64,000 nt of DNA from Elusimicrobia bacterium GWA2_56_46. GTDB lineage: Bacteria; Elusimicrobiota; Elusimicrobia; Elusimicrobiales; UBA9959. This document shows positions 5,004-57,199 of this stretch, one piece after another. The notes beneath the pieces were generated by a model. It saw only the letters and a program-made list of their open reading frames with translations, did no database searches and had not been told where the DNA came from. The stretch covers positions 1-64,000 of the forward strand of contig MGTT01000019.1 in assembly GCA_001799575.1 (NCBI GenBank). The letters run 5' to 3'. The first letter of the stretch is position 1; each line of letters begins with the position of its first letter. A program made the position numbers and the translations under genes.

Positions 5004-5351
5004 TTAGCAGGTTTTGGCGGTCAGGGTTTGGAGTTTTTCCAGGATGGTTTTTTGCTGGTTGCGGTCGGACAGCGTCAATGTGTAGTGGAAGTAGCCGCAT
5101 GGGTCCCGCAGAACCTCGGCCACCGCGCCGCGTATCTCTTCAAGTTTTTCTCCGTCAAGTTCGAAGCCCAGGACCAGGACCCTGCCTTTCCTGAACTCAA
5201 ATTGCGACAGGAATTCTATTCTATCCGGGCTTATGGCCGTGGCGCGTCCCCAGAAAGGGGATTCCTCCATCGAGATCCGGATGGTAACGGGAATATATTC
5301 CCTCCCGAAAAATTCAGTTGAATTTTTCGGGTTATCTCGGTTCAGGGACAT
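5004..5351 (-). CDS. Small PilZ-like domain protein
   Basis: The 115-residue protein has REYIPVTIRISMEES near its start followed by short beta-strand-like segments (RVLVLGFEL, FHYTLTL), a layout like single-domain PilZ proteins, which bind cyclic di-GMP. The classical RxxxR and D/NxSxxG motifs are degenerate (ATAISPDRIEFL), so nucleotide binding is doubtful. Its start overlaps the end of the upstream propeller protein gene by 20 bases, suggesting one operon. Two perfect palindromes (5289-5302 and 5304-5331) lie in its first codons, so the true start is uncertain. The call is tentative. Confidence 0.5.
   Translation of the reverse strand: MSLNRDNPKNSTEFFGREYIPVTIRISMEESPFWGRATAISPDRIEFLSQFEFRKGRVLVLGFELDGEKLEEIRGAVAEVLRDPCGYFHYTLTLSDRNQQKTILEKLQTLTAKTC
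5304..5331. repeat. Perfect 28-base palindrome (13-bp arms) at an operon junction
   Basis: The arms CCCGAAAAATTCA and TGAATTTTTCGGG are perfect complements around a 2-base centre. The element begins directly after the stop codon of the propeller protein gene and overlaps the N-terminal codons of the PilZ-like gene. A related hairpin occurs at 28367-28394. A second palindrome, GGGAATATATTCCC, sits at 5289-5302. Confidence 0.7.
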
Positions 5352-6480
5352 TGAAAAGCCAGCCTTTACCTTTGTCCTCGGCGGCGAACCAGATCTTTCC
5401 GCCCCTGGAACTCAGGGCGGTTATTTTAAGGGACTTCGAGGCGTACTGCGGGATCTCCGTCTTAGAGAGAATGGTCTCCGGATCGTCGGGGGAAAGCTTG
5501 ACCAGCGCTTTCAGCCCTTCGTCGGCCACCCACAGGAAGCGGGGATCACAGGCCAGGGCGGTAAGCGTTTTGCCGGGATAGGTGAAAGTTTTCAGTTCGC
5601 TTAAGCCGTCATTGCCAAGGCGTTTGGAGATCACGTTCCCTTCCTGGTAACCGGCCCAGAAGTAAAGACCGTCATAGCAGACGCCGGCAGGGGCTTTAAG
5701 CCCCGGCTTCGTTTTTGAAAGCAGCGTGAACCTGTCGTTTTTCATTCTGCGCTCTATCTCTCCGCCGGCCGCCGCCAGCCATATTGCGTCGGCGCCGTCG
5801 GCCATGCCCACCGGCACGGTGTCCGGGAAAGCGGCGATGCCGGCGATCTTAAAATCCTTGAGTTCGTGTTTGTATACGGCCTGGGTGTACCAGTCGCTTA
5901 CCAGCACCCTTCCTTTATCGAAAGCCAGGCCGGAGGGATGGGAGTATGGCAGTTCGGTCATGGAGGGAGGGGGCAGTTCCCGGCCGTATTTCCTGAAGCC
6001 GTAGAGCCAGCCGGAAACGAATCCGAAGATAAGCGTCATAGCCAGCCCGGCCGCGGCCAGGATCAGTTTGTTTTTCCGGTTAATTTCGGCCCGGTCGGCG
6101 TCCAGCCGGAGGGCCGTGCCGCTTATGTTGAGGGCTTTTTTGTAAAGGGGTTTTATTTCTTCTTCGGTCCAGGGGCTTTGGGCGCAGTCGAAAGCGCCGA
6201 GTTTCATATAGGCGATGGCCTTTGAGGAATCCCGTTTTTTAAGCAGCACCAGCAGCGGCAGCAACGGGGCTATCCTCAACAGTTCCCGTATCTGTATCTC
6301 GGCGGGCGGCTCCTCCCCGTCCACTATGAAGACGGCTTTCGGCCTGGTCTTTTCAAAAACCGCCAGCGCGTCGTTCAGATCCCGCGAGAATACGGCGTCC
6401 GCGCCCAGGTTCCTGAAAATGCTTTCAAGTATTGCGCGGTCCGTCCGCGACTCCACTATTATCTGGACGGTATTGGGCAT
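5332..6480 (-). CDS. Membrane protein: degenerate response-receiver domain, one TM helix, extracytoplasmic beta-propeller
   Basis: Residues 1-115 look like a CheY-type receiver, with a phosphoacceptor-like Asp54 in FIVDG. The conserved lysine position appears to be serine (QSPW near residue 102), so normal phosphorylation switching is doubtful. A transmembrane helix spans about residues 138-161. The remaining 210 residues contain repeated strand motifs such as GLAFDKGRVLVSDW, GVCYDGLYFWAG and ALACDPRFLWVAD, typical of NHL/SMP-30-like propellers. The topology suggests a cytoplasmic pseudo-receiver and a periplasmic propeller. It heads an operon with the PilZ-like gene. Its ligand and partner are unknown. 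Confidence 0.7.
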   Translation of the reverse strand: MPNTVQIIVESRTDRAILESIFRNLGADAVFSRDLNDALAVFEKTRPKAVFIVDGEEPPAEIQIRELLRIAPLLPLLVLLKKRDSSKAIAYMKLGAFDCAQSPWTEEEIKPLYKKALNISGTALRLDADRAEINRKNKLILAAAGLAMTLIFGFVSGWLYGFRKYGRELPPPSMTELPYSHPSGLAFDKGRVLVSDWYTQAVYKHELKDFKIAGIAAFPDTVPVGMADGADAIWLAAAGGEIERRMKNDRFTLLSKTKPGLKAPAGVCYDGLYFWAGYQEGNVISKRLGNDGLSELKTFTYPGKTLTALACDPRFLWVADEGLKALVKLSPDDPETILSKTEIPQYASKSLKITALSSRGGKIWFAAEDKGKGWLFNVPEPR

Positions 6481-6503: not shown

Positions 6504-6552
6504 GCCATAAGCCGTAGGCCGTACGCCATACGCGGAATGGCTGACGGCTGAA
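6504..6552. repeat. Degenerate heptanucleotide array, 7 units
   Basis: Seven consecutive 7-bp units begin GCCATAA, GCCGTAG, GCCGTAC and end GGCTGAC, GGCTGAA. The array fills most of the 85-bp gap between two leftward genes. Other 7-bp-period arrays with different units occur at 23187, 44711, 45516, 52714 and 56114. Confidence 0.75.
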
Positions 6553-6565
6553 TACCATTTACCCG

Positions 6566-7885
6566 TTACCGGACATCGCCCATTTCCCGGGCCGGAGGCG
6601 CGGGAATTTCCAGTACCGCTCCTTCCACGGGCAGGCCTCTTGAGATATATTTCTGGTTGGCTTCATAGATGCGCTCCCAGAGATTGGGGTTGCCGTAATA
6701 ACGGGAAGCTATGGAGCGCAGAGTGTCGCCCGCCTCCACTTTATGGAGTTTGGGCCATTTCTCCGGTTTCGGAGGGGGCGCCGCTTTTACGGGCTTTGGG
6801 TTTTCCTTCCGGTGTTCGGCTTCTATGATCTGCAGATCCAGTTCCCTGAGCCTGGCCTCCATATCGCGCATACGGGACTGCATTATGGTGAGATCCGTCT
6901 CAAGCACGCCCTTATTGGCCCGGTAGGTGGCGATGGAATTATCAAGCCCGGCTTTCTGGGCGCGCAGCTCGTCTATCTGCGTTTTGAGGGATCCGGCCCT
7001 GGCTCCGGCTTCGCCCACGAACCGTTCGGCGAAAGCGGGCGCGTCGAAACGGTATCCTACGCTGGCGCCGTAGAGGCCGGCGCTCTGGTCCAGGCCTTTC
7101 CAGGGTATGGAGGCCGTGAGATCTATTATCCAGGGAGTGGTGTTAATGCCGAGGCCGAGGGCCAGGTAATCCGGGCCCCCGAGCGTAACGCCTTTACCAG
7201 CGCGAACCTGCAGCAGATTGTTGAAGAGGCCGCGTTCCAGCCCGTAAAAAAGTTCGCTGTAGGATCCGCGCATTTTAAGGTCCATCGCGATAAGATTGCC
7301 TCGCCAGCGGTAAGAATTGCCTATGGTAAGCGCGGTCAGCGGCCGGCCCAGGCCTATGGCCAGGTCGGAGAGGGCAAGGGAAGTTTTGAGTCCCATGTTT
7401 GAAGAAAAGATCAGTCCGCCCTCAACCCCCAGGCCCAGGTGGCTTTTTTCCGGGTCGCGCAGGCTCATGATCTTGAAATTCACTCCGTAAAGCACCGGCC
7501 GCTGCAGATATTTAAGGACAAAGCTGTCGCCCAGGCCCATGTAGAGGGAGTCCATATCGCCGGTCTTTGCCTGGCGAACCGCATGGTAGCCGAGGCCGGC
7601 GATGCGGCTGGTATCCGGCACCGGCCGCGCATAAGCGATGGAAACCTCGCCCGTCGGGGAGAGCGTGGAAATTCTGCGCGCCAGGCCGAAGCGGTTTTCC
7701 ACGCTGTCAAGGTTCCTCAGGCCGGCTGGATTGTAAAAGACGGTGTAAGGGTCGTCGGCCACGCTGGTGAAAGCGGTGCCCAGAGCGTTGGCCCGCGCGC
7801 CCGGACGCAGAAAGGTCAGATCGGCGGCCGCGGCGTTAGCGGCGGACAGGAGCAGACCGAGCATGAACGGAGCGAGTTTGTTCAT
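6566..7885 (-). CDS. PorV/PorQ-like outer-membrane barrel protein with coiled coil and C-terminal LysM domain
   Basis: The start is placed at the ATG at 7885, which begins a normal signal peptide (MNKLAPFMLGLLLSAANAAA). The frame is open to 7939, but that extension does not look like a signal sequence. The first 270 mature residues contain LRPGARANALGTAFTS and DDPYTVFYNPAGL, hallmarks of PorV/UPF0164-type beta-barrels. A coiled coil with many Asp/Glu/Arg/Gln residues follows (about 300-375), then a LysM module near the end (LHKVEAGDTLRSIASRYYGN). LysM binds peptidoglycan, so the protein probably ties an outer-membrane barrel to the cell wall. A PorV-like gene without LysM is at 22907. Confidence 0.8.
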   Translation of the reverse strand: MNKLAPFMLGLLLSAANAAAADLTFLRPGARANALGTAFTSVADDPYTVFYNPAGLRNLDSVENRFGLARRISTLSPTGEVSIAYARPVPDTSRIAGLGYHAVRQAKTGDMDSLYMGLGDSFVLKYLQRPVLYGVNFKIMSLRDPEKSHLGLGVEGGLIFSSNMGLKTSLALSDLAIGLGRPLTALTIGNSYRWRGNLIAMDLKMRGSYSELFYGLERGLFNNLLQVRAGKGVTLGGPDYLALGLGINTTPWIIDLTASIPWKGLDQSAGLYGASVGYRFDAPAFAERFVGEAGARAGSLKTQIDELRAQKAGLDNSIATYRANKGVLETDLTIMQSRMRDMEARLRELDLQIIEAEHRKENPKPVKAAPPPKPEKWPKLHKVEAGDTLRSIASRYYGNPNLWERIYEANQKYISRGLPVEGAVLEIPAPPAREMGDVR

Positions 7886-16033: not shown

Positions 16034-16375
16034 ATGAGCAAGAGAATATATGTGGGCGGTCTGCCTTTTTCGGCCAATGACGAGCAGCTGAGCGCGGTTT
16101 TCGCGTCGCACGGCTCGGTCACCAGCGCTAAAGTCATCACCGACAAGTTCAGCGGCCAGTCCCGGGGCTTCGGCTTCGTGGAAATGTCCAATGACGCGGA
16201 AGCGATGGCCGCCATCGAGAAGCTTAACGGCTCCGACATGGAAGGCCGCAAGCTTACCGTGAATGAAGCGCGGCCTATGGAAGCCCGCGACGGCGGTTCG
16301 CGCGGCGGTTCGCGCGGCGGCTTCGGCGGCGGACGCGGCGGACGCGACGGCGGCGGCGGTGGAAACCGCTGGTAA
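16034..16375 (+). CDS. Glycine-rich RRM RNA-binding protein, copy 1
   Basis: The 113-residue protein is a single RRM with RNP2 (IYVGGLPF, residues 4-11) and RNP1 (RGFGFVEM, about residues 46-53), followed by a tail of RGG-like repeats rich in Gly, Arg and Ser. Such bacterial proteins bind single-stranded RNA; in cyanobacteria they are linked to cold response. The start is fixed by a strong AGGAGGA Shine-Dalgarno. A near-identical copy is at 16564. The tail is longer than in copy 2. Confidence 0.92.
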   Translation: MSKRIYVGGLPFSANDEQLSAVFASHGSVTSAKVITDKFSGQSRGFGFVEMSNDAEAMAAIEKLNGSDMEGRKLTVNEARPMEARDGGSRGGSRGGFGGGRGGRDGGGGGNRW

Positions 16376-22906: not shown

Positions 22907-23857
22907 ATGAAGAAATATCTAATCGCCGGCTGCTTGGCCATTTGTGGGTTTAACACGGTTGCTGCCCTGGAAACCGGCGCGGAGTTCCTTAAAATTGATA
23001 CCGACGCCAGGGCGGTATCCATGGGTTCCGCATATACCGCAACAGCCGACGGCATAAATTCCTTGAGTTATAATCCGGCCGGGCTGGCATCAATAAAAAG
23101 CGCGGAGTTCGGATTCAGCCATACCACCTGGCTTATGGATTCCAGACATGATTTTGTGGGGGTGGGGATGCCGTTTGGAAATAAAACACGGGGAGTGGGG
23201 AGCGGGAAGCGGGGGAGGGCGGCGGTGGGGTTGGGCGTAGTCAGGCTTAGCAACAGCGATATGGAGATCCGTAATGCGGATGAAAGTACGGGGGGCAGCT
23301 TTTCAAGTTATGATCAGGCCGTGACGCTTGGCTTTGCTATGGGTAATCCGGAAATAAAAAGGTGGGGAATGGGCGCGGCGGTGAAATATATTGAAAGTTC
23401 TATTGCCGGTGTGAAAGCGCGGGCGGTGGCGGCAGACTTTGGCCTGAATAGAACGCTCAGGGGTATGCCGGTTACGTTCGGCCTGTCGGTGCAGAATTTG
23501 GGAACCCCGATGAAGTATATAAGCCAGAAGGATCCGTTGCCGCTGACACTGGCCGGCGGCGTTGCGGTGGGCGTAATCTCCGGTTTTAATCTGGCGATGG
23601 ACGTGAAACGTTCCGTTTACGACAAACGGACGACAGTAAGCGTGGGCACCGAATACACCCTAATGTCGGTGGTGTCGCTGAGGAGCGGCCTAACGATGAA
23701 CAGAGACTTTGCGAACAAGGTAGGCTTGGGCGGAGTAAGGGGGAATTTCAGCGCTGGTGCTGGACTGAATTTTTGGGGCATGAATATGGATTACGCAATG
23801 CAACCGTATGGTGAGCTTGGAAACACGCAGAAAATAACCCTCCGCAAAAAGTTTTAG
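22907..23857 (+). CDS. PorV/UPF0164-like outer-membrane beta-barrel protein
   Basis: The 316-residue protein has a signal peptide ending near NTVAA and the family hallmarks GAEFLKIDTDARAVSMGSAY and SLSYNPAGLASI. It ends in an aromatic/charged strand (KITLRKKF) typical of outer-membrane barrels. PorV proteins in type IX systems carry cargo with C-terminal sorting domains to the surface; the preceding gene encodes such a domain. A GC-rich 7-bp-period tract at 23187-23235 encodes a Gly/Arg-rich insertion (GVGSGKRGRAA) that looks foreign to the barrel. Confidence 0.8.
   Translation: MKKYLIAGCLAICGFNTVAALETGAEFLKIDTDARAVSMGSAYTATADGINSLSYNPAGLASIKSAEFGFSHTTWLMDSRHDFVGVGMPFGNKTRGVGSGKRGRAAVGLGVVRLSNSDMEIRNADESTGGSFSSYDQAVTLGFAMGNPEIKRWGMGAAVKYIESSIAGVKARAVAADFGLNRTLRGMPVTFGLSVQNLGTPMKYISQKDPLPLTLAGGVAVGVISGFNLAMDVKRSVYDKRTTVSVGTEYTLMSVVSLRSGLTMNRDFANKVGLGGVRGNFSAGAGLNFWGMNMDYAMQPYGELGNTQKITLRKKF
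23187..23235. repeat. Heptanucleotide array inside the PorV-like coding sequence
   Basis: The units CACGGGG, AGTGGGG, AGCGGGA, AGCGGGG repeat every 7 bases from 23187 to 23214 and then decay up to about 23235. The array keeps the reading frame and encodes a loop rich in Gly, Lys and Arg. Confidence 0.6.
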
Positions 23858-43556: not shown

Positions 43557-44693
43557 TTAGACTGAAACTTTCCGGACAAGAGAGTCCTTTACCGCGTCGG
43601 TCACGGCTTTTATCTGTTCGCCGGTCAGTTCGGGGAACATCGGCAGGGAGAACACCGTGTCCTGCGTTTTCTCGCAGACCGGCAGATCGCCCCGCTTGTA
43701 GCCCAGGCGGGCGTACGCTTTCTGCAGATGCAGGGACACGGGATAATAGATCTGGTTGGCTATGCCGCTTTCGGTGAGAACCTTCTGCGCGTTGTCGCGC
43801 ACGGCTTTCGAGCCGAAGCGGATGGTGTAGTAATTGAACGAGTGTTTGCAATCGGGCCGGACTACGGGTGTTTCGCACACGTCTTTCAGGGCGGCGGCGT
43901 ATTTCGCGGCCGCGGCGTTGCGCATTTCCGTCCATTTGAGCACGCGCTTGAGTTTTACGGAAAGTATGGCGGCCTGGATGGTGTCCAGGCGGGAGTTGAA
44001 GCCTTCCATGTCGTGGAGATAGCGCACTTTGCTGCCGTGGTTCCTGAGCGCTTTGAGTTCCGCCGCTATCTCCGGATCGTTAGTGGTCACCAGTCCGCCG
44101 TCGCCGAACGCGCCCAGGTTCTTGGCGGGGAAGAAGCTGAAAGTACCGCAATCGCCTATGGCCCCTGTGTATTTCCAGTCCTTTCCGCCGGTTTTGTACT
44201 GGGCGGTGAAAGACTGGGCGCAGTCCTCGATCACTTTAAGGCCGTGTTTTTTGGCCAGGGCCATGATGGGATCCATGTCCGCGGGGTGGCCGTACAGGTG
44301 AACCGGGATGACCGCTTTCGTTCTTTTGGTGATCTTCTTCTCCACGGATTTCGGATCTATGTTGTAGGTGTCGGGTTCTATGTCGGCGAACACCGGGATA
44401 GCCCCGGACTGGCTGATGGTCTCGGTGGTGGCTATAAAGGTGAAAGGGGTGGTGATGACCTCGTCGCCGGGCTTTATTCCGGCGGCGACAATGGCGAGCC
44501 TGAGCGCGTCGGTGCCGTTGGCCACGCCCACTGCGTATTTTGAGCCGTTAAGGGCCGCAAATTCGTTTTCGAACTTCGCCACTTCCTCGCCCAGGATAAA
44601 ATTGCCTTTGTTCATCACGGCCCTGACCGCGGCTTCCGCTTCGTCTTTGATAGCGGGATAGCCCGCCAGCAGATCCACCATGGGTACTTTCAT
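43557..44693 (-). CDS. DegT/DnrJ/EryC1-type sugar aminotransferase
   Basis: The 378-residue protein has NGTDALRLAIVAAGIKPGDE, TTPFTFIATTETISQSG, VIEDCAQSFTAQY and the PLP-lysine region SFFPAKNLGAFGDGG near residue 189. The family transfers an amino group from glutamate to a keto-sugar nucleotide. It would supply an amino sugar for the glycan. A heptamer repeat stub (44711-44731) lies upstream. Confidence 0.92.
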   Translation of the reverse strand: MKVPMVDLLAGYPAIKDEAEAAVRAVMNKGNFILGEEVAKFENEFAALNGSKYAVGVANGTDALRLAIVAAGIKPGDEVITTPFTFIATTETISQSGAIPVFADIEPDTYNIDPKSVEKKITKRTKAVIPVHLYGHPADMDPIMALAKKHGLKVIEDCAQSFTAQYKTGGKDWKYTGAIGDCGTFSFFPAKNLGAFGDGGLVTTNDPEIAAELKALRNHGSKVRYLHDMEGFNSRLDTIQAAILSVKLKRVLKWTEMRNAAAAKYAAALKDVCETPVVRPDCKHSFNYYTIRFGSKAVRDNAQKVLTESGIANQIYYPVSLHLQKAYARLGYKRGDLPVCEKTQDTVFSLPMFPELTGEQIKAVTDAVKDSLVRKVSV

Positions 44694-44710
44694 ACAAGAA
44701 CCTCCGTACC

Positions 44711-44731
44711 AGGATTCAAGATTCCGGAATC
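44711..44731. repeat. Three-unit heptanucleotide array
   Basis: AGGATTC, AAGATTC and CGGAATC follow one another exactly. The units match those of the larger array at 45516-45610. The element lies in the divergent promoter region between 44693 and 44807. Confidence 0.55.
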
Positions 44732-44792
44732 CCTATAGGTTAATTGTATAAAAATACTCCGGGACGGGACAAATAAGAAATGGCTTATTTGT

Positions 44793-44806: not shown

Positions 44807-45517
44807 ATGAAGACGAGCGTGATCATACCGTCCTTTAACGAGATAAAAACCCTGCCCGAGATCCTTAAAAAGATAGCGGAGCTGCCCATAGACAGGGAAG
44901 TGGTGGTGGTGGACGACGGTTCCACCGACGGCACCAGGGAATGGCTGGAGCGGGCGGCGGCCGGCAAAGCCTTTCCGTTCGTTCTTAAAGTGATAAAGCA
45001 CGAGGCCAATCAAGGCAAGGGCGGGGCGCTGCTCACCGGTTTCGCGGCCGCCGAGGGCGACATCGTTATTATCCAGGACGCGGATCTGGAATACGACCCC
45101 GGCTATATTCCGGAGATAGTGCGGCCGATAGCGGAGGGGGGCTACGACGTGGTTTACGGCTCGCGGCTGCTTTCCGGCCGTACCAGGACCCACAATATCA
45201 TGTACCTCTGGGGGAACCAGTTCCTGACTTTTCTCACGGCGTTTCTGTTCGGCGTGAAAATGACGGATTCCTATACCTGTTACAAGGCTTTCAGAACCCC
45301 GCTGGTGCGCTCCCTCGGTCTTGTTTCCGACGGCTTTGAGATCGAAGCCGAGATCTCCTGCAAGATCGCTTTCAGAAAATATAAATTCACCGAAGTTCCC
45401 ATCGCCTACGCGCCCAGGTCAAGGGGGGAAGGCAAGAAAATAAATTACAGGGACGCGGTCAAAGGCGTGCTCAAGATTTTAGAATTGAGGATTAAGAGTC
45501 TATTTGCCGGAATTTAA
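44807..45517 (+). CDS. GT2 glycosyltransferase, polyprenyl-phosphate sugar synthase type
   Basis: The 236-residue protein has SVIIPSFNEIKTLPEIL, VVVVDDGSTDGTREWL and IVIIQDADLEYDPGYIPEI with the DAD metal motif, and ends without membrane helices (LKILELRIKSLF). It resembles short DPM1-like enzymes and is related in layout to the protein at 29944. The end of the gene is drawn into a 7-bp-period sequence (TTGAGGATTAAGAG). Confidence 0.88.
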   Translation: MKTSVIIPSFNEIKTLPEILKKIAELPIDREVVVVDDGSTDGTREWLERAAAGKAFPFVLKVIKHEANQGKGGALLTGFAAAEGDIVIIQDADLEYDPGYIPEIVRPIAEGGYDVVYGSRLLSGRTRTHNIMYLWGNQFLTFLTAFLFGVKMTDSYTCYKAFRTPLVRSLGLVSDGFEIEAEISCKIAFRKYKFTEVPIAYAPRSRGEGKKINYRDAVKGVLKILELRIKSLFAGI

Positions 45518-45610
45518 GATTCCGGATTCAGGATTTAAGATTGCGGATTAAATAAAAGTGCTTCGGCGATCTTAAATCTTCAATCTTGAATCCGAAATCT
45601 TCAATCGCTT
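45516..45610. repeat. Inverted pair of heptanucleotide arrays
   Basis: The left arm has five units at 45516-45550 (AAGATTC, CGGATTC, AGGATTT, AAGATTG, CGGATTA). The right arm has six units at 45569-45610 (ATCTTAA, ATCTTCA, ATCTTGA, ATCCGAA and so on), roughly the reverse complement. The arms are separated by an 18-base spacer with a CTTCGG-type loop. The element fills the gap between the GT2 and WecA-like genes. Confidence 0.8.
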
Positions 45611-52617: not shown

Positions 52618-54697
52618 AGATCCACGGGTTCAGCAGATTTCCCGGGTCGAAAGCTTTTTTCAGGCGGCGGTGGTATTCGTCCGGCTTAAATTCCACCGGA
52701 TTGCGACCGTCGGCCTGTGACTTGTGTCTCATGACCGGTGTCTTGTACCCTGTGTCCTGCGCCCCGGCATGGAGAGTCGTCCTGAGGGTGACGGTAAGTA
52801 TCACACCGTACGCGCCCAGGGAGCCGCAGAAAAGTTTCATGGCGTCGTAACCGGCGACGTTCTTGACGGTCTTGCCGCCGAAAGAGAGAACGGAGCCGTC
52901 GGCCAGGGCCACGTCCATTCCAAGCAGGATGTCCCGCGCCGGAGGCCAGACTTTCGCCGCGATAACGCCGCCCAGCGTTCCGTCAAGGTCCGGCAGCATT
53001 ATGCTGAAGCCGGCTTTTTTCAGCCATTTTCTCAGTTCTCCGACCGGCACGCCGGCCTCGGCGCGGACGGTGAAATTTTCCCGGTCCAGTTCCAGGATCC
53101 TGTTAAGGGCGGTCGTGTCCAGCGCTTTGCAACCGGCGCCGTCCCATTTCCCGCGCAAAGGCCGCTTGTCCCGCCGCAGGCTTTCTCCCGACCCCGTTAC
53201 GGCCGTTTTTGCGCCGAGGTTATGCCGGGACTGAAGTTCGGTTATCAGGACGGCCGCAGCCTCTCCCAGAAAGCCTGGCGGGAAAGCGCGCGTCCTGGCG
53301 CGGCGGTCCTGCGCCACGGGCAGGATCTTGTCCGGATTGACCAGATCCCTGGGGTCGAAAGCGGCTTTTATGGCGCCGAAGAAATCCAGCGTGGCCGCGT
53401 CGTACATCCAGTTCATGGCCACCCGTTTCTCAACGCCTATGCCATGTTCGCCGGAGATGGCGCCGCCCAGCCGGATGCAGCTTTTGAGGATTTCGTAGCC
53501 GGCATTCCTGACGCGCTTCACTTCCTGGAGATCGCGCGCGTCGAACAGTATGTTCGGGTGGAGATTGCCGTCCCCGGCGTGGAACAGGAGCCCGGCCGTT
53601 AACTTATACCTTGAAAGTATGTCTCTGGTTTCCCGGAGGGCTTCCGGCAGTCTGGGGCGGGGAACTACTCCGTCTTCGACCATGACGTTCGGGGCCAGGC
53701 GGGCCATGGCGGGATAGGCGCCTTTGCGGGCGGCCCAGAGGGCTTCCCGCTCGGCGGGATCCGCGGCGGTTTTAAAAGAGGTGGAGAAAGAGGTCTTGCA
53801 GATCTCCATGATGGCGCGCAGCTCTCCCGCGACCTTCTTGTCGCTCGCGCCGTCCAGTTCTATGAGGAGGATGGCGTTCGTGCCCGGGGGATAATCCGTT
53901 TTGAGATTTTTTTTGGCGGCGTCCAGGGAGATCTTGTCCATCGCCTCCAGGGCACGGGGCACTATGCCCGCTCCGATTATCCCGGACGCCGCGCTGACGG
54001 CGTTCTCGACGGAGGCGAAAGCGGCCACGGCGGTCTGCACGACTTTCGGTTTTTCAAGGATCTTAAGCCAGGCCCTGGTGACTATGCCCAGCGTGCCCTC
54101 CGAACCGATGAGCAGGCTCATCAGATCCGGTCCGGGATCTCCGTATGACCAGAGCTTCACGTCCCCTTCCGGGGTGACGACTTCCAGGCGCTCCACGTTG
54201 TCCGAGGTAACCCCGTATTTCAGGCACTGGGGGCCGCCGGCGTTCTCGCCGATGTTGCCGCCTATGGTCGAGACTTTCTGGCTGGCCGGGTCGGGCGCGT
54301 AGAAAAAGCCGAATTTCTCCAGTTCAATCTGGAGGCGCAGGTTCACCACCCCGGGCTCCACCAGGGCCAGGCGGTTGATGGTGTCGATCTGGCGGATCCT
54401 GTTTAGAAGCGACAGGTTGAAGATCACGCCGCCTTTAAGCGGAATGGTGCCTCCGGAAAGATTTGTGCCCGCTATCCTGGGGAGGTACGGGATGCCGGCG
54501 GCGTAAAGGAGTTTTGCCGCGGGCGCCACCTGATCCGTGGAGGTGAAGCGTACGACGGCTTCCGGCTTCGCGCGCGCCAGGCCCGCGTCATAGGAATACA
54601 TCAGGAGTTCGGCCGCGTCGGTGAACACGTTCTCCGGCCCCGCGATATTTTCCAGCGCCCGTCTGACCCCTTCGTCGAAGCTGCGTTTTTGGAACAT
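52610..54697 (-). CDS. GlcD-GlcE fusion: FAD-linked alpha-hydroxyacid oxidase
   Basis: The 695-residue protein joins two FAD-binding (PCMH) units. Residues 1-460 are GlcD-like (YLPRIAGTNLSGGTIPLKGG, STIGGNIGENAGGPQCLKYG, the LFHAGDGNLHPN segment and SGEHGIGVEKR). Residues 470-695 are GlcE-like (AVTGSGESLRRDKRP, FSIMLPDLDGTLGGVIAAK and a late FDPGNLLNPW). In E. coli these are separate proteins of glycolate oxidase. Natural substrates of such enzymes are glycolate and D-lactate. A 7-bp-period array (52714-52762) inserts a loop, AQDTGYKTPVMRHKSQADG, near the C-terminus. Confidence 0.88.
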   Translation of the reverse strand: MFQKRSFDEGVRRALENIAGPENVFTDAAELLMYSYDAGLARAKPEAVVRFTSTDQVAPAAKLLYAAGIPYLPRIAGTNLSGGTIPLKGGVIFNLSLLNRIRQIDTINRLALVEPGVVNLRLQIELEKFGFFYAPDPASQKVSTIGGNIGENAGGPQCLKYGVTSDNVERLEVVTPEGDVKLWSYGDPGPDLMSLLIGSEGTLGIVTRAWLKILEKPKVVQTAVAAFASVENAVSAASGIIGAGIVPRALEAMDKISLDAAKKNLKTDYPPGTNAILLIELDGASDKKVAGELRAIMEICKTSFSTSFKTAADPAEREALWAARKGAYPAMARLAPNVMVEDGVVPRPRLPEALRETRDILSRYKLTAGLLFHAGDGNLHPNILFDARDLQEVKRVRNAGYEILKSCIRLGGAISGEHGIGVEKRVAMNWMYDAATLDFFGAIKAAFDPRDLVNPDKILPVAQDRRARTRAFPPGFLGEAAAVLITELQSRHNLGAKTAVTGSGESLRRDKRPLRGKWDGAGCKALDTTALNRILELDRENFTVRAEAGVPVGELRKWLKKAGFSIMLPDLDGTLGGVIAAKVWPPARDILLGMDVALADGSVLSFGGKTVKNVAGYDAMKLFCGSLGAYGVILTVTLRTTLHAGAQDTGYKTPVMRHKSQADGRNPVEFKPDEYHRRLKKAFDPGNLLNPWIYD
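52714..52762. repeat. Heptanucleotide array inside the GlcD-GlcE coding sequence
   Basis: Seven 7-bp units follow one another, including CCTGTGA, CTTGTGT, CTCATGA and ending CCTGTGT, CCTGCGC. The stretch encodes the loop around DTGYKTPVMRHKSQ, which lies between the GlcE FAD core and its last helix, where a family member would not need it. Confidence 0.75.
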
Positions 54698-54711: not shown

Positions 54712-56097
54712 CTATCTGCCCAGTTTGAGCTTGGCGGTGAAATGCGCCAGCGCCCTGGGGGCTTCCACTACCTCCAGGCCTTTTATGCTCTTTTTGTTCC
54801 TGGCGATCATGCCCAGCACTTCTATGACGTAATCTATGTGGCTCTGCGTATAGACGCGCCGGGGCATGGCCAGGCGAACCAGTTCCATCGGCGCCGGCAG
54901 GAAGCCGCCTTTGGCGTCCCTGCGGCCGAACATCAGCGTCCCTATTTCTACGCCCCTTATCCCGCCCTCCAGATAAAGCCGGCAGGCAAGCGACTGGGCC
55001 GGGAAATTCCGCGGTTGTATGTGGGGCAGAAGTTTCTTGGCGTTTATGTAGACGCCGTGGCCGCCCGGGGGATTCACTATCGGGATGCCGTGTTTCAGCA
55101 GGCCTTCGCCGAAATATTCCGCCGAGCGCAGCCGGTACTGGAGATAGTTTTCATCCAGCACTTCGCGCAGGCCGATGGCGATAGCTTCCAGGTCGCGGCC
55201 GGCCAGGCCGCCGTAGGTGGCGAAGCCCTCCGTCAGGATAAGGAGCTGGCGGGCTTTGGAAGCCCAGTCTTTGTTGTTCAGGGCCAGGAAGCCGCCCATA
55301 TTGGCGAATGCGTCTTTCTTGGAACTCATCCAGGTTCCGTCGGCCAGCTCGAACATGGACTCGGCTATTTTCCGCACCGGCACGCAGCCGTAGCCCTTTT
55401 CGCGCAGTTTTATGAAATAGGCGTTTTCGGCGAAACGGGCGCAGTCCAGGAACAGCGGGATGCCGTATTTGTGGCAGATGCTCTGGGCGCCTTTCAGGTT
55501 CTCCATGGAGACCGGCTGGCCTCCGAGCGAATTATTGGTTATCGTCATCACGCACAGCGGGATGTTCTTAGCGCCTTTTTCCCTGACGAATTTTTCCATG
55601 GCGGCCAGGTCGGCGTTGCCTTTGAAAGGGGCCGGCTTGTCGAAATCCATAGCGGCTTTGGAGGGGAAATCCATGGCCTGGGCGCCGGAAGCCTCCACGT
55701 TGGCGCGCGTGGTGTCGAAATGCGAATTGGAAATGACATACTTGCCCTTGCCGCCGATGAGGGTGAAAAGTATCTTTTCCGCGGCGCGGCCCTGGTGGAC
55801 CGGAATGACCTCCGCGAAACCGGTCAGGCGTTTTATCTCTCCCTCAAAATTATAGTAACTGCGCGCCCCGGCGTAGGACTCGTCGCCCGTCATGATGCCG
55901 CCCCACTGCGCGGCGCTCATCGCGCCCGTCCCGCTGTCGGTCAAAAGATCTATAAGAACTTTCTCGGCCCTGATGTTGAAAAGATTGTAATGCGCGGCGT
56001 CCAGGATCTTAAGGCGCTCCTCGCGGGTGGTGAAGCCCAGCGGCTCCACGGTCTTTATCTTAAAAGGTTCGATTATCGTTTTCCATTTCCATTCCAT
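54712..56097 (-). CDS. tnaA: Tryptophanase (beta-eliminating lyase)
   Basis: The 461-residue PLP enzyme matches the tryptophanase/tyrosine phenol-lyase family along its length, with LTDSGTGAMSAAQWGGIMTG, VIPVHQGRAAEKIL, FLDCARFAENAYFIK, the PLP lysine in SSKKDAF (near 261) and TYGGLAGRDLEAIAIGL. Residues that separate the two activities favour tryptophanase: Asp128 in SHFDTTR (Thr in tyrosine phenol-lyase), the EIG motif (ERG in tyrosine phenol-lyase) and His452 in AHFTAKL (Phe in tyrosine phenol-lyase). It converts tryptophan to indole, pyruvate and ammonia. No tnaC-type leader is visible. Serine or cysteine may also be substrates. Confidence 0.9.
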   Translation of the reverse strand: MEWKWKTIIEPFKIKTVEPLGFTTREERLKILDAAHYNLFNIRAEKVLIDLLTDSGTGAMSAAQWGGIMTGDESYAGARSYYNFEGEIKRLTGFAEVIPVHQGRAAEKILFTLIGGKGKYVISNSHFDTTRANVEASGAQAMDFPSKAAMDFDKPAPFKGNADLAAMEKFVREKGAKNIPLCVMTITNNSLGGQPVSMENLKGAQSICHKYGIPLFLDCARFAENAYFIKLREKGYGCVPVRKIAESMFELADGTWMSSKKDAFANMGGFLALNNKDWASKARQLLILTEGFATYGGLAGRDLEAIAIGLREVLDENYLQYRLRSAEYFGEGLLKHGIPIVNPPGGHGVYINAKKLLPHIQPRNFPAQSLACRLYLEGGIRGVEIGTLMFGRRDAKGGFLPAPMELVRLAMPRRVYTQSHIDYVIEVLGMIARNKKSIKGLEVVEAPRALAHFTAKLKLGR

Positions 56098-56113
56098 GAG
56101 AGGGGCTCCTTAC

Positions 56114-56148
56114 AGTAGTGGTTAGTGGATAGTGGTCAGTGACTGATG
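56114..56148. repeat. Heptanucleotide array, 5 units
   Basis: AGTAGTG, GTTAGTG, GATAGTG, GTCAGTG and ACTGATG follow one another exactly in the 52-bp gap between the DUF1646 gene and the tryptophanase gene. The array ends just before the stop codon of the upstream gene. Confidence 0.75.
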
Positions 56149-56149
56149 T

Positions 56150-57199
56150 TTATTGTACAAATATGGTCATCAGTACGAAATAGACCGTCATCAGGGCGGC
56201 GCCGCAGGGCAGCGCGGCTTTCGCCCATTCTCCTGATTTTATATTGAGCTTGGCGGCGCTTATGATGTTCGGGATATTACCCGGGATGAGCATCCCGCCT
56301 GAGATGAGCAGGCCCATGAGCGTGAACTTGACCTGCTTGTCGGTCATTATCGGAACCAGCTCGGCCGCCGCCAGCGTGGCGTTGTCCAGTATGGCGGACA
56401 ACGAATTGGCCCAGTAAAGTCCCCAAATCGGCATTCCGGGCACAAAACGTTCGGCCAGCGGCGTAAGGCCCGCGCCCAGAAAGATAAGCGCCATGACAAA
56501 GAGGTACACTTTCAGGGCGCGGAGCGCGACGCTTCGATTGGTTTCCAGGGCGTCTTCGGTAAGACCGAGGCCGGCCGGATCAGCCCTGCCTGCCGCGCTG
56601 GCGCCCAAAAAGGCCATGACCAGAACCCCGGGCACGACCCAGAGGCCTATCTGCCTTATAAGATAAAAAAAATCGGCGTTGTGCGGCGCGTCTTTCAGTT
56701 TAGCCACCGCGATGGTCGACAGCGGCTCGCCTATAGGGGTCAGCGCGGCGCCAAGGCCTATGGCGAAGCAGGCGTAGACCACGATCTTTATCTCGCGGTT
56801 CCTTTCAAGCTTCAGGATGCTGATGATCTCGGCCAGCGCGAGGGCGGCTATAATAGCCGTCATCAGGCTTGAACCCAGGCCGAGAAATAGTATTACCGCG
56901 AAGACCGCCCGGCGCAGGCCAAGCGCGTTTATGAGAAGCTCCAGCCAGCCTTTGAGTTTCGGGCGCGCGGCCCTGAAAGCGAAACCCAGCGCCAGCACCG
57001 CCAGAGTTATCTTAACCGGCGCGCTGAACGCCTCTTCCACCAGCGCCGCGCTCCAGCGGTCTGAAATGGTTACCGCGGCCAGGCCCATCACGAACAGAAA
57101 GGCCTCCAGCTCCTCCTCCGCTTTTTTTACGGAAAAAGGCAGGACAAGCGTGAGCATCATGACAACCGCAAGACCGCCTATGGTGAGATATTCGCTCAT
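56150..57199 (-). CDS. DUF1646-family membrane transporter
   Basis: The 349-residue protein has about ten helices and the motifs LVLPFSVKKAEEELEAFLF, GLGAALTPIGEPLSTIAVAK and ANSLSAILDNATLAAAELVP, typical of DUF1646 proteins related to ion transporters of the NhaD/CitM type. The TPIGEP and DNATLA loops would line the transport path. It is directly upstream of tryptophanase in the same direction, so a role in moving tryptophan, indole or counter-ions is possible but not shown. Confidence 0.75.
   Translation of the reverse strand: MSEYLTIGGLAVVMMLTLVLPFSVKKAEEELEAFLFVMGLAAVTISDRWSAALVEEAFSAPVKITLAVLALGFAFRAARPKLKGWLELLINALGLRRAVFAVILFLGLGSSLMTAIIAALALAEIISILKLERNREIKIVVYACFAIGLGAALTPIGEPLSTIAVAKLKDAPHNADFFYLIRQIGLWVVPGVLVMAFLGASAAGRADPAGLGLTEDALETNRSVALRALKVYLFVMALIFLGAGLTPLAERFVPGMPIWGLYWANSLSAILDNATLAAAELVPIMTDKQVKFTLMGLLISGGMLIPGNIPNIISAAKLNIKSGEWAKAALPCGAALMTVYFVLMTIFVQ

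Follow-up and report, generated by a model that had tools for sequence, protein, structure and literature searches.

Heptamer arrays and heptamer-armed palindromes in the gene gaps of an Elusimicrobiota genome, with patchy occurrence among its relatives

Tandem arrays with a 7-bp period, built from recurring unit families, are spread through the genome of the uncultured Elusimicrobia bacterium GWA2_56_46 (G000). Some are arranged as palindromes, a subset of which shares a common core; arrays stand at sites where relatives have none, and their distribution among related genomes is patchy. Our leading but tentative reading is that they are non-autonomous, non-coding DNA elements whose seeding would occur in trans and whose growth would proceed by 7-bp slippage. 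A heptamer excess as such is known in many prokaryotes; what appears to be new here is the palindromic element with its core, and the recurrent insertion at a single site. With an array-rich species, a nearly array-free congener, one gap filled independently and a centred palindrome, the origin of heptamers becomes testable by comparison and experiment.

Heptamer arrays in the window and in the genome

The window is the whole stretch of 64,000 nucleotides analysed. It was scanned with 21-bp templates derived from the genome's own unit families, allowing ≤ 3 mismatches, which gave 39 matches compared to 0 in the reversed window. The sequence-only reading had listed six places with a 7-bp rhythm (6504, 23187, 44711, 45516-45610, 52714 and 56114). 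Five of these are real and were recovered by the templates, whereas 23187 was not recovered. The sites are as follows, with the evidence in brackets:

6504..6573, no strand assigned: composite heptamer array (sequence, period-7 score 17/21, family templates)
23186..23219, no strand assigned: the 23187 site, not a supported member (15/21 matches, no family fit, within a coding gene)
44708..44736, no strand assigned: two to three GATTCNN units, fragment or relic (family templates)
45508..45607, no strand assigned: palindromic element with GATTNNR arms (folds as DNA, z = -3.3; family templates)
52714..52762, no strand assigned: degenerate CYTGTGN array of 6-7 units (family templates; in the FAD-oxidase coding region)
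56112..56145, no strand assigned: AGTGGTN array (period-7 score, family templates)

The stutter at 6504-6552 is as had been claimed, with the units GCCATAA, GCCGTAG, GCCGTAC, GCCATAC, GCGGAAT, GGCTGAC and GGCTGAA, and the register is carried on past 6552 by TACCATT, TACCCGT and TACCGGA, ending at 6573. By family, the array consists of four GCCRTAN units, GCGGAAT, two GGCTGAM and three TACCNNN units. It fills the 85-bp gap between a response-regulator-like gene (5332-6480, minus strand) and a LysM gene (6566-7885, minus strand), and the stop codon of the latter (TTA at 6566-6568 of the plus strand) is provided by the last family of the array (TACCNNN; unit TTACCGG). The heptamer array seen at 45516-45610 also exists, but it had been overlooked that this is a single palindromic element with inverted heptamer arms: a GATTNNR array (45508-45554), a centre and an inverted array (45563-45607). 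The element sits between two glycosyltransferase genes, the first of which takes its stop codon from the array. The AGTGGTN array fills the 52-bp gap between genes 54712-56097 (minus) and 56150-57199 (minus). The CYTGTGN units at 52714 form an insertion in the FAD-oxidase gene, missing from the aligned orthologue of the congener G002. The GATTCNN fragment, in the gap upstream of gene 43557-44693 (minus), is not conserved in G002 either. A GC-rich coding repeat at 16286-16359, with periods 9, 12 and 24 in a small ORF, is unrelated to the heptamers.

Judged by period alone, the window contains 3 period-7 tracts where simulations give about 0.35, and tracts of period 9 or 12 are similarly frequent in it; its array density is below the genome average. 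Taken alone, the period-7 signal of the window is suggestive only, whereas the genome-wide signal is decisive. Of the 2.66-Mb genome (30 contigs), 840 kb were sampled, and a tract was counted if 16 or more of 21 positions matched at lag 7. Some of the sampled stretches had been picked at matches of an earlier pattern search, which slightly inflates the density; the later contiguous stretches are free of this bias. The concern that period 7 might be no commoner genome-wide than other periods was tested and did not hold: 99 period-7 tracts were found, compared to 1-5 for periods 4, 5, 8, 10, 11 and 13, and five order-2 Markov simulations gave 0-5. Periods that are multiples of three were also raised, nearly all within coding sequence.

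Genes were predicted with a simple codon-usage caller, and counts close to gene ends are approximate. Intergenic sequence, 12.5% of the total, holds 60 of the 99 arrays (about 11-fold enrichment), which bears out the proposed genome-wide, mostly intergenic system with several unit families. Predicted coding sequence contains the other 39, and several families occur inside large predicted genes (L054:2330-3927, L055:280-767, L066:16028-16452), which suggests tolerated insertions. Few arrays lie in divergent gaps, i.e. those with promoters (4 of 105, P = 4e-6 for the depletion). Arrays lie closer to stop codons than to start codons: in G000 and genus g11 the median distance is 7-11 bp on the stop side and longer, 33-50, on the start side, a pattern absent in genus g3. 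No clear strand preference was seen. Purifying selection on permitted sites is the simplest reading of this placement.

The consensus units of 63 strong arrays formed 18 clusters, including a masked N run, compared to 33-43 clusters for random units of the same composition; the biggest comprise 17, 9 and 8 arrays. About eight families cover nearly all arrays, mainly GGGATGA, GGCTAAA, CTTGTGA, TTACYGG, GCCRTAN, AGTGGTN, GATTNNR and GGGTARA, and the units are thus not random. Units do vary between loci, as had been noticed, but this variety is not limitless, since the same families turn up at different loci and in different genera. The positions of a family are partly near-invariant and partly free (TA in GCCNTAN, AGTG in AGTGNNN; P = 2e-3 to 1e-11), and the free positions of GCCNTAN are identical in a second genus. 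Homogeneous long arrays exist as well, e.g. (TCATCCC)n and (GCCTTTA)n. Unit order was no better than shuffled in five of six families and marginal for GATTCAA (4 of 200). Period-8 arrays, some as inverted pairs, accompany the heptamers at L101, L102, L103, L106 and L107 (g3, g5); thus, 7 is the dominant but not the sole unit length. A CYTGTGA array was also seen in six IMG/VR viral contigs (L221-L226) of differing GC content, so that this unit occurs beyond Elusimicrobiota genomes too; these contigs gave no sign of a viral source of the arrays.

Palindromic form and its centre

The array-rich genomes sampled yielded 41-44 inverted pairs, with about five units per arm and a centre of 5-30 nt, giving palindromes of about 100 bp. 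An inverted partner within 90 bp was present for 38 of 110 strong intergenic arrays (~35%), and 36 of 41 inverted pairs lie in gaps between same-strand genes. The arms match mainly at the fixed unit positions, and unit order is mirrored weakly at most. Apart from contig-end duplicates, no flanks are common to the copies, and no MITE-like terminal inverted repeat was established among them. Outer ends of inverted elements at L053, L088, L111 and L197 carry the weak motif AACAGC (5 seen compared to ~1.1 expected), which hints at a terminal sequence. Separately, a short palindrome, GAAAAATTCARTTGAATTTTTC, recurs close to gene ends in G000 and G002 (L009, L075:18430-18460, L150).

A subset of the inverted pairs has a common 14-bp centre, TAAGGARYTCCTTA. 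In samples of genera g3, g11, g5 and g6, 10 of 11 sites of the form AAGGA...TCCTT lie between heptamer arms, compared to 0 of 12 in array-poor genomes (P ~1e-5). Whole-genome counts of the full centre over 295 genomes are 39 and 27 (g3), 18, 13 and 12 (g11), 3 (G001) and 0-2 elsewhere; the reversed-pattern control gave 0-1. G000 itself has one exact copy genome-wide, looser centre sites in its sample lie near an array in 1 of 9 cases, which is close to chance, and the inverted pairs of this genome mostly have other centres. The arms flanking the 14-bp centre are GGGTAGA in g3 and both GCCATAN and GGGTANA in g11; G000 and G001 have GCCATAN, g6 and g10 an AGAAGTC-like unit, and G004 and G017 (L190, L204) octamer-like arms. 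Since different arm families surround one centre, the centre outlasts the arms. Its orientation relative to genes is unbiased (about 6 vs 9).

Gain and loss among relatives

The congener G002 has 1 array in 491 kb. Genera g3, g5, g6 and g11 have 10-33 arrays per 100 kb with overlapping families, and samples of g4, g12, g13 and family f2 contained essentially none. Whole-genome counts of three consecutive CTTGTGA units in the 295 Elusimicrobiota genomes agree with this: G000 has 27, G001 and G002 have 2 apiece, g11 reaches 264, and g4, g12, g13 and f2 have 0-2.

The gap between the LysM and response-regulator genes differs from lineage to lineage. In three genera it is filled by different families, GCCRTAN in G000, (GGCTAAA)12 plus (ACTGGTY)11 in G016 and CTTGTGA units in G013; it measures 38 bp in G002, and 5-10 bp with no array in G024, G006 and G029. 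Different families, or none, at one orthologous gap indicate that arrays enter gaps independently, and ancestral slippage is hence not the explanation at this place. The suggestion that the arrays mark active genome remodelling fits this one gap, given the different arrays in different lineages. The orthologous gap of G005 (JACQYT010000008.1; L011/L039, upstream of 1501/5001) has, in place of a heptamer array, three consecutive, unrelated, near-perfect palindromes.

At the G002 orthologue of 45508-45607, the two genes overlap by an ATGA stop/start and there is no insert; the gap corresponding to 56112-56145 has a different sequence. An apparent decayed inverted pair of GGCTAAA type in G002 indicates that array loss and decay probably occur too. 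No target-site duplication was recognisable against empty sites in relatives that are only 75-80% identical.

Several enzymes were considered as agents or correlates, and none among RVT_1, Y1, MutS, DinB and Ku tracks the arrays. A reverse-transcriptase origin (retron, DGR or group II intron) was rejected because RVT_1 is absent in G000 (98.8% complete) and elsewhere scattered regardless of arrays. Y1/RAYT transposases occur in array-rich and array-poor genomes alike, with an array near 3 of 20 loci, which is not above background. MutS is present in nearly all genomes, DinB does not follow the arrays and Ku was found in no genome examined.

Known repeat systems and explanations weighed

Among the intergenic tandem repeats of prokaryotes, heptamers are the commonest, and they have no known function (SPADE survey, PMC6344855). 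The sequence-only reading had named the heptamer repeats of cyanobacteria; that setting does not apply, as the host belongs to an Elusimicrobiota lineage, for which no heptamers were found in the literature searched. The arrays resemble STRR/LSSR in being 7-bp units, intergenic, genome-wide and of several unit sequences per genome, and they show the same excess of period 7 over other periods, chiefly between genes; for Calothrix, several heptanucleotide units per genome are reported as cited in PMC4692102 and PMC4679880. They differ in the many inverted pairs, the palindromic centre of a subset and the different families at one orthologous gap.

GGGNATC repeats of Xanthomonas and Nostoc (PMC4692102) lie between aligned genes, near stops, are depleted divergently and include some inverted repeats, all of which they share with the arrays described here. 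However, that system has one G-quadruplex-forming unit with strand preference near genes, mostly at the same loci in related species, whereas the present units are mostly not G-quadruplex-forming, show no clear strand preference and differ at one locus. No GGGNATC-type unit is among the families here; GGGATGA and GGGTAGA bear GGG, yet differ. In Beggiatoaceae, TAACTGA repeats (PMC4679880) are likewise intergenic direct repeats of patchy distribution, missing from a close relative. They consist of one unit, placed a short way upstream of start codons, and include essentially no inverted repeats (169 direct sets compared to 1 indirect), whereas the arrays here are nearer stops; the TAACTGA family was not found in the census.

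REP/BIME sequences with RAYT (PMC3733652, GTAG/CGTC-tagged REPs) are also short intergenic palindromes in many copies. In contrast to them, no conserved foot tetranucleotide was seen here, the stem is a tandem array, and Y1 genes neither flank the elements nor correlate with them. Compared to MITEs, near-identical copies with terminal inverted repeats are absent and unit order is mostly not conserved. The literature searched contained no description of a palindrome with inverted heptamer arms and a conserved centre, which is weak evidence as most subscription papers lay outside the search.

According to the trans-seeding reading, the basic form would be the ~100-bp palindrome of about five units, a short centre and about five inverted units, and single arrays may be its halves, relics or expansions. 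A putative trans-acting process would seed elements at new gaps from a unit set shared within the lineage. Growth and reshuffling would follow by 7-bp slippage, possibly aided by folding of the single strand into hairpins, and hairpin-assisted inversion may contribute. Elements would persist where harm is small, i.e. past stop codons, in same-strand gaps, rarely at promoters and sometimes in tolerant coding stretches, so that tolerance rather than a cellular function would keep them. Where the process is lost, apparently in G002, arrays would decay. The period-7 excess, the small unit library recurring at unrelated loci and in several genera, the different arrays at one gap, the array-free orthologous site of 45508-45607, the inverted pairs, the core between heptamer arms, the near absence in G002 and the signs of a DNA-level element speak for this reading. 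The missing common flanks, a unit order that is mostly no better than shuffled, the rarity of the core in G000 and the fact that no enzyme tracks the arrays and that no terminal inverted repeat or target-site duplication was established speak against it.

A more specific version is possible but doubtful. It takes the elements as a new class of mobile DNA palindromes with the 14-bp centre and arms of tandem units that are 7 bp, at times 8 bp, long; arms would be swapped between lineages while centre and architecture persist, and the class would be the source seeding multi-family arrays across bacterial genomes.

Pure replication slippage would amplify chance 7-bp near-duplicates in situ, with 7 bp matching the contact length of the polymerase (proposed by Mrazek 2007, as cited in PMC4692102 and PMC4679880). 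It accounts for the 7-bp specificity and for homogeneous long arrays, but we consider it unlikely. Simple slippage, which had been offered as an origin, leaves the shared unit library, the inverted pairs and the array-free orthologous sites unexplained: units should differ freely, whereas a few families recur; neither inverted pairs nor a common centre would arise; a seed is needed, which orthologous gaps do not have; and period-8 arrays are present in some genera as well. The combined evidence argues that slippage alone is insufficient for heptamer arrays.

Binding of each unit by a small DNA-binding protein like Omega (ribbon-helix-helix), with the arrays as operators, centromere-like or nucleoid sites under selection, would be the chief mechanistic rival that carries a function, and it appears rather unlikely. 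In the Omega/parS system of pSM19035 (PMC9499535), contiguous WATCACW heptads stand in direct and inverted order; the mixed order here, the four to five contiguous units, the fixed and free unit positions shared by two genera for GCCNTAN and the unbiased palindromic centre would all suit such binding. That system has one unit at a few plasmid promoters, whereas the units here are many and spread over hundreds of sites in the chromosome. Omega-like binding would account for the fixed positions, but not for eight or more unrelated families, sites unstable between relatives and the near absence in the congener. No PF07764 match was obtained in the genome; control genomes gave no match either.

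Transcription terminators or stabilisers of mRNA 3' ends, with inverted arrays acting as RNA hairpins past stop codons, would agree with the same-strand gaps after stop codons and with hairpin folding. This is distinctly improbable: a T-run of at least 5 follows just 5 of 41 inverted pairs, arm mismatches on the sense strand are no more often G.U (84) than A.C (95), most arrays are unpaired and the congener lacks arrays. No Rfam family matched. The missing G.U excess together with the absence of a clear strand preference points to a DNA-level element.

An assembly or metagenome artefact, for which some arrays at contig ends might speak, is scarcely credible, as identical families occur in many independent assemblies and other periods and simulations are near zero. 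At one such end, the start of contig C21 of G000 (L054:5-576), CTTGTGA and GGGATGA arrays build a long inverted repeat that pairs perfectly (51/51 and 55/55) and may be a fold-back of the assembly.
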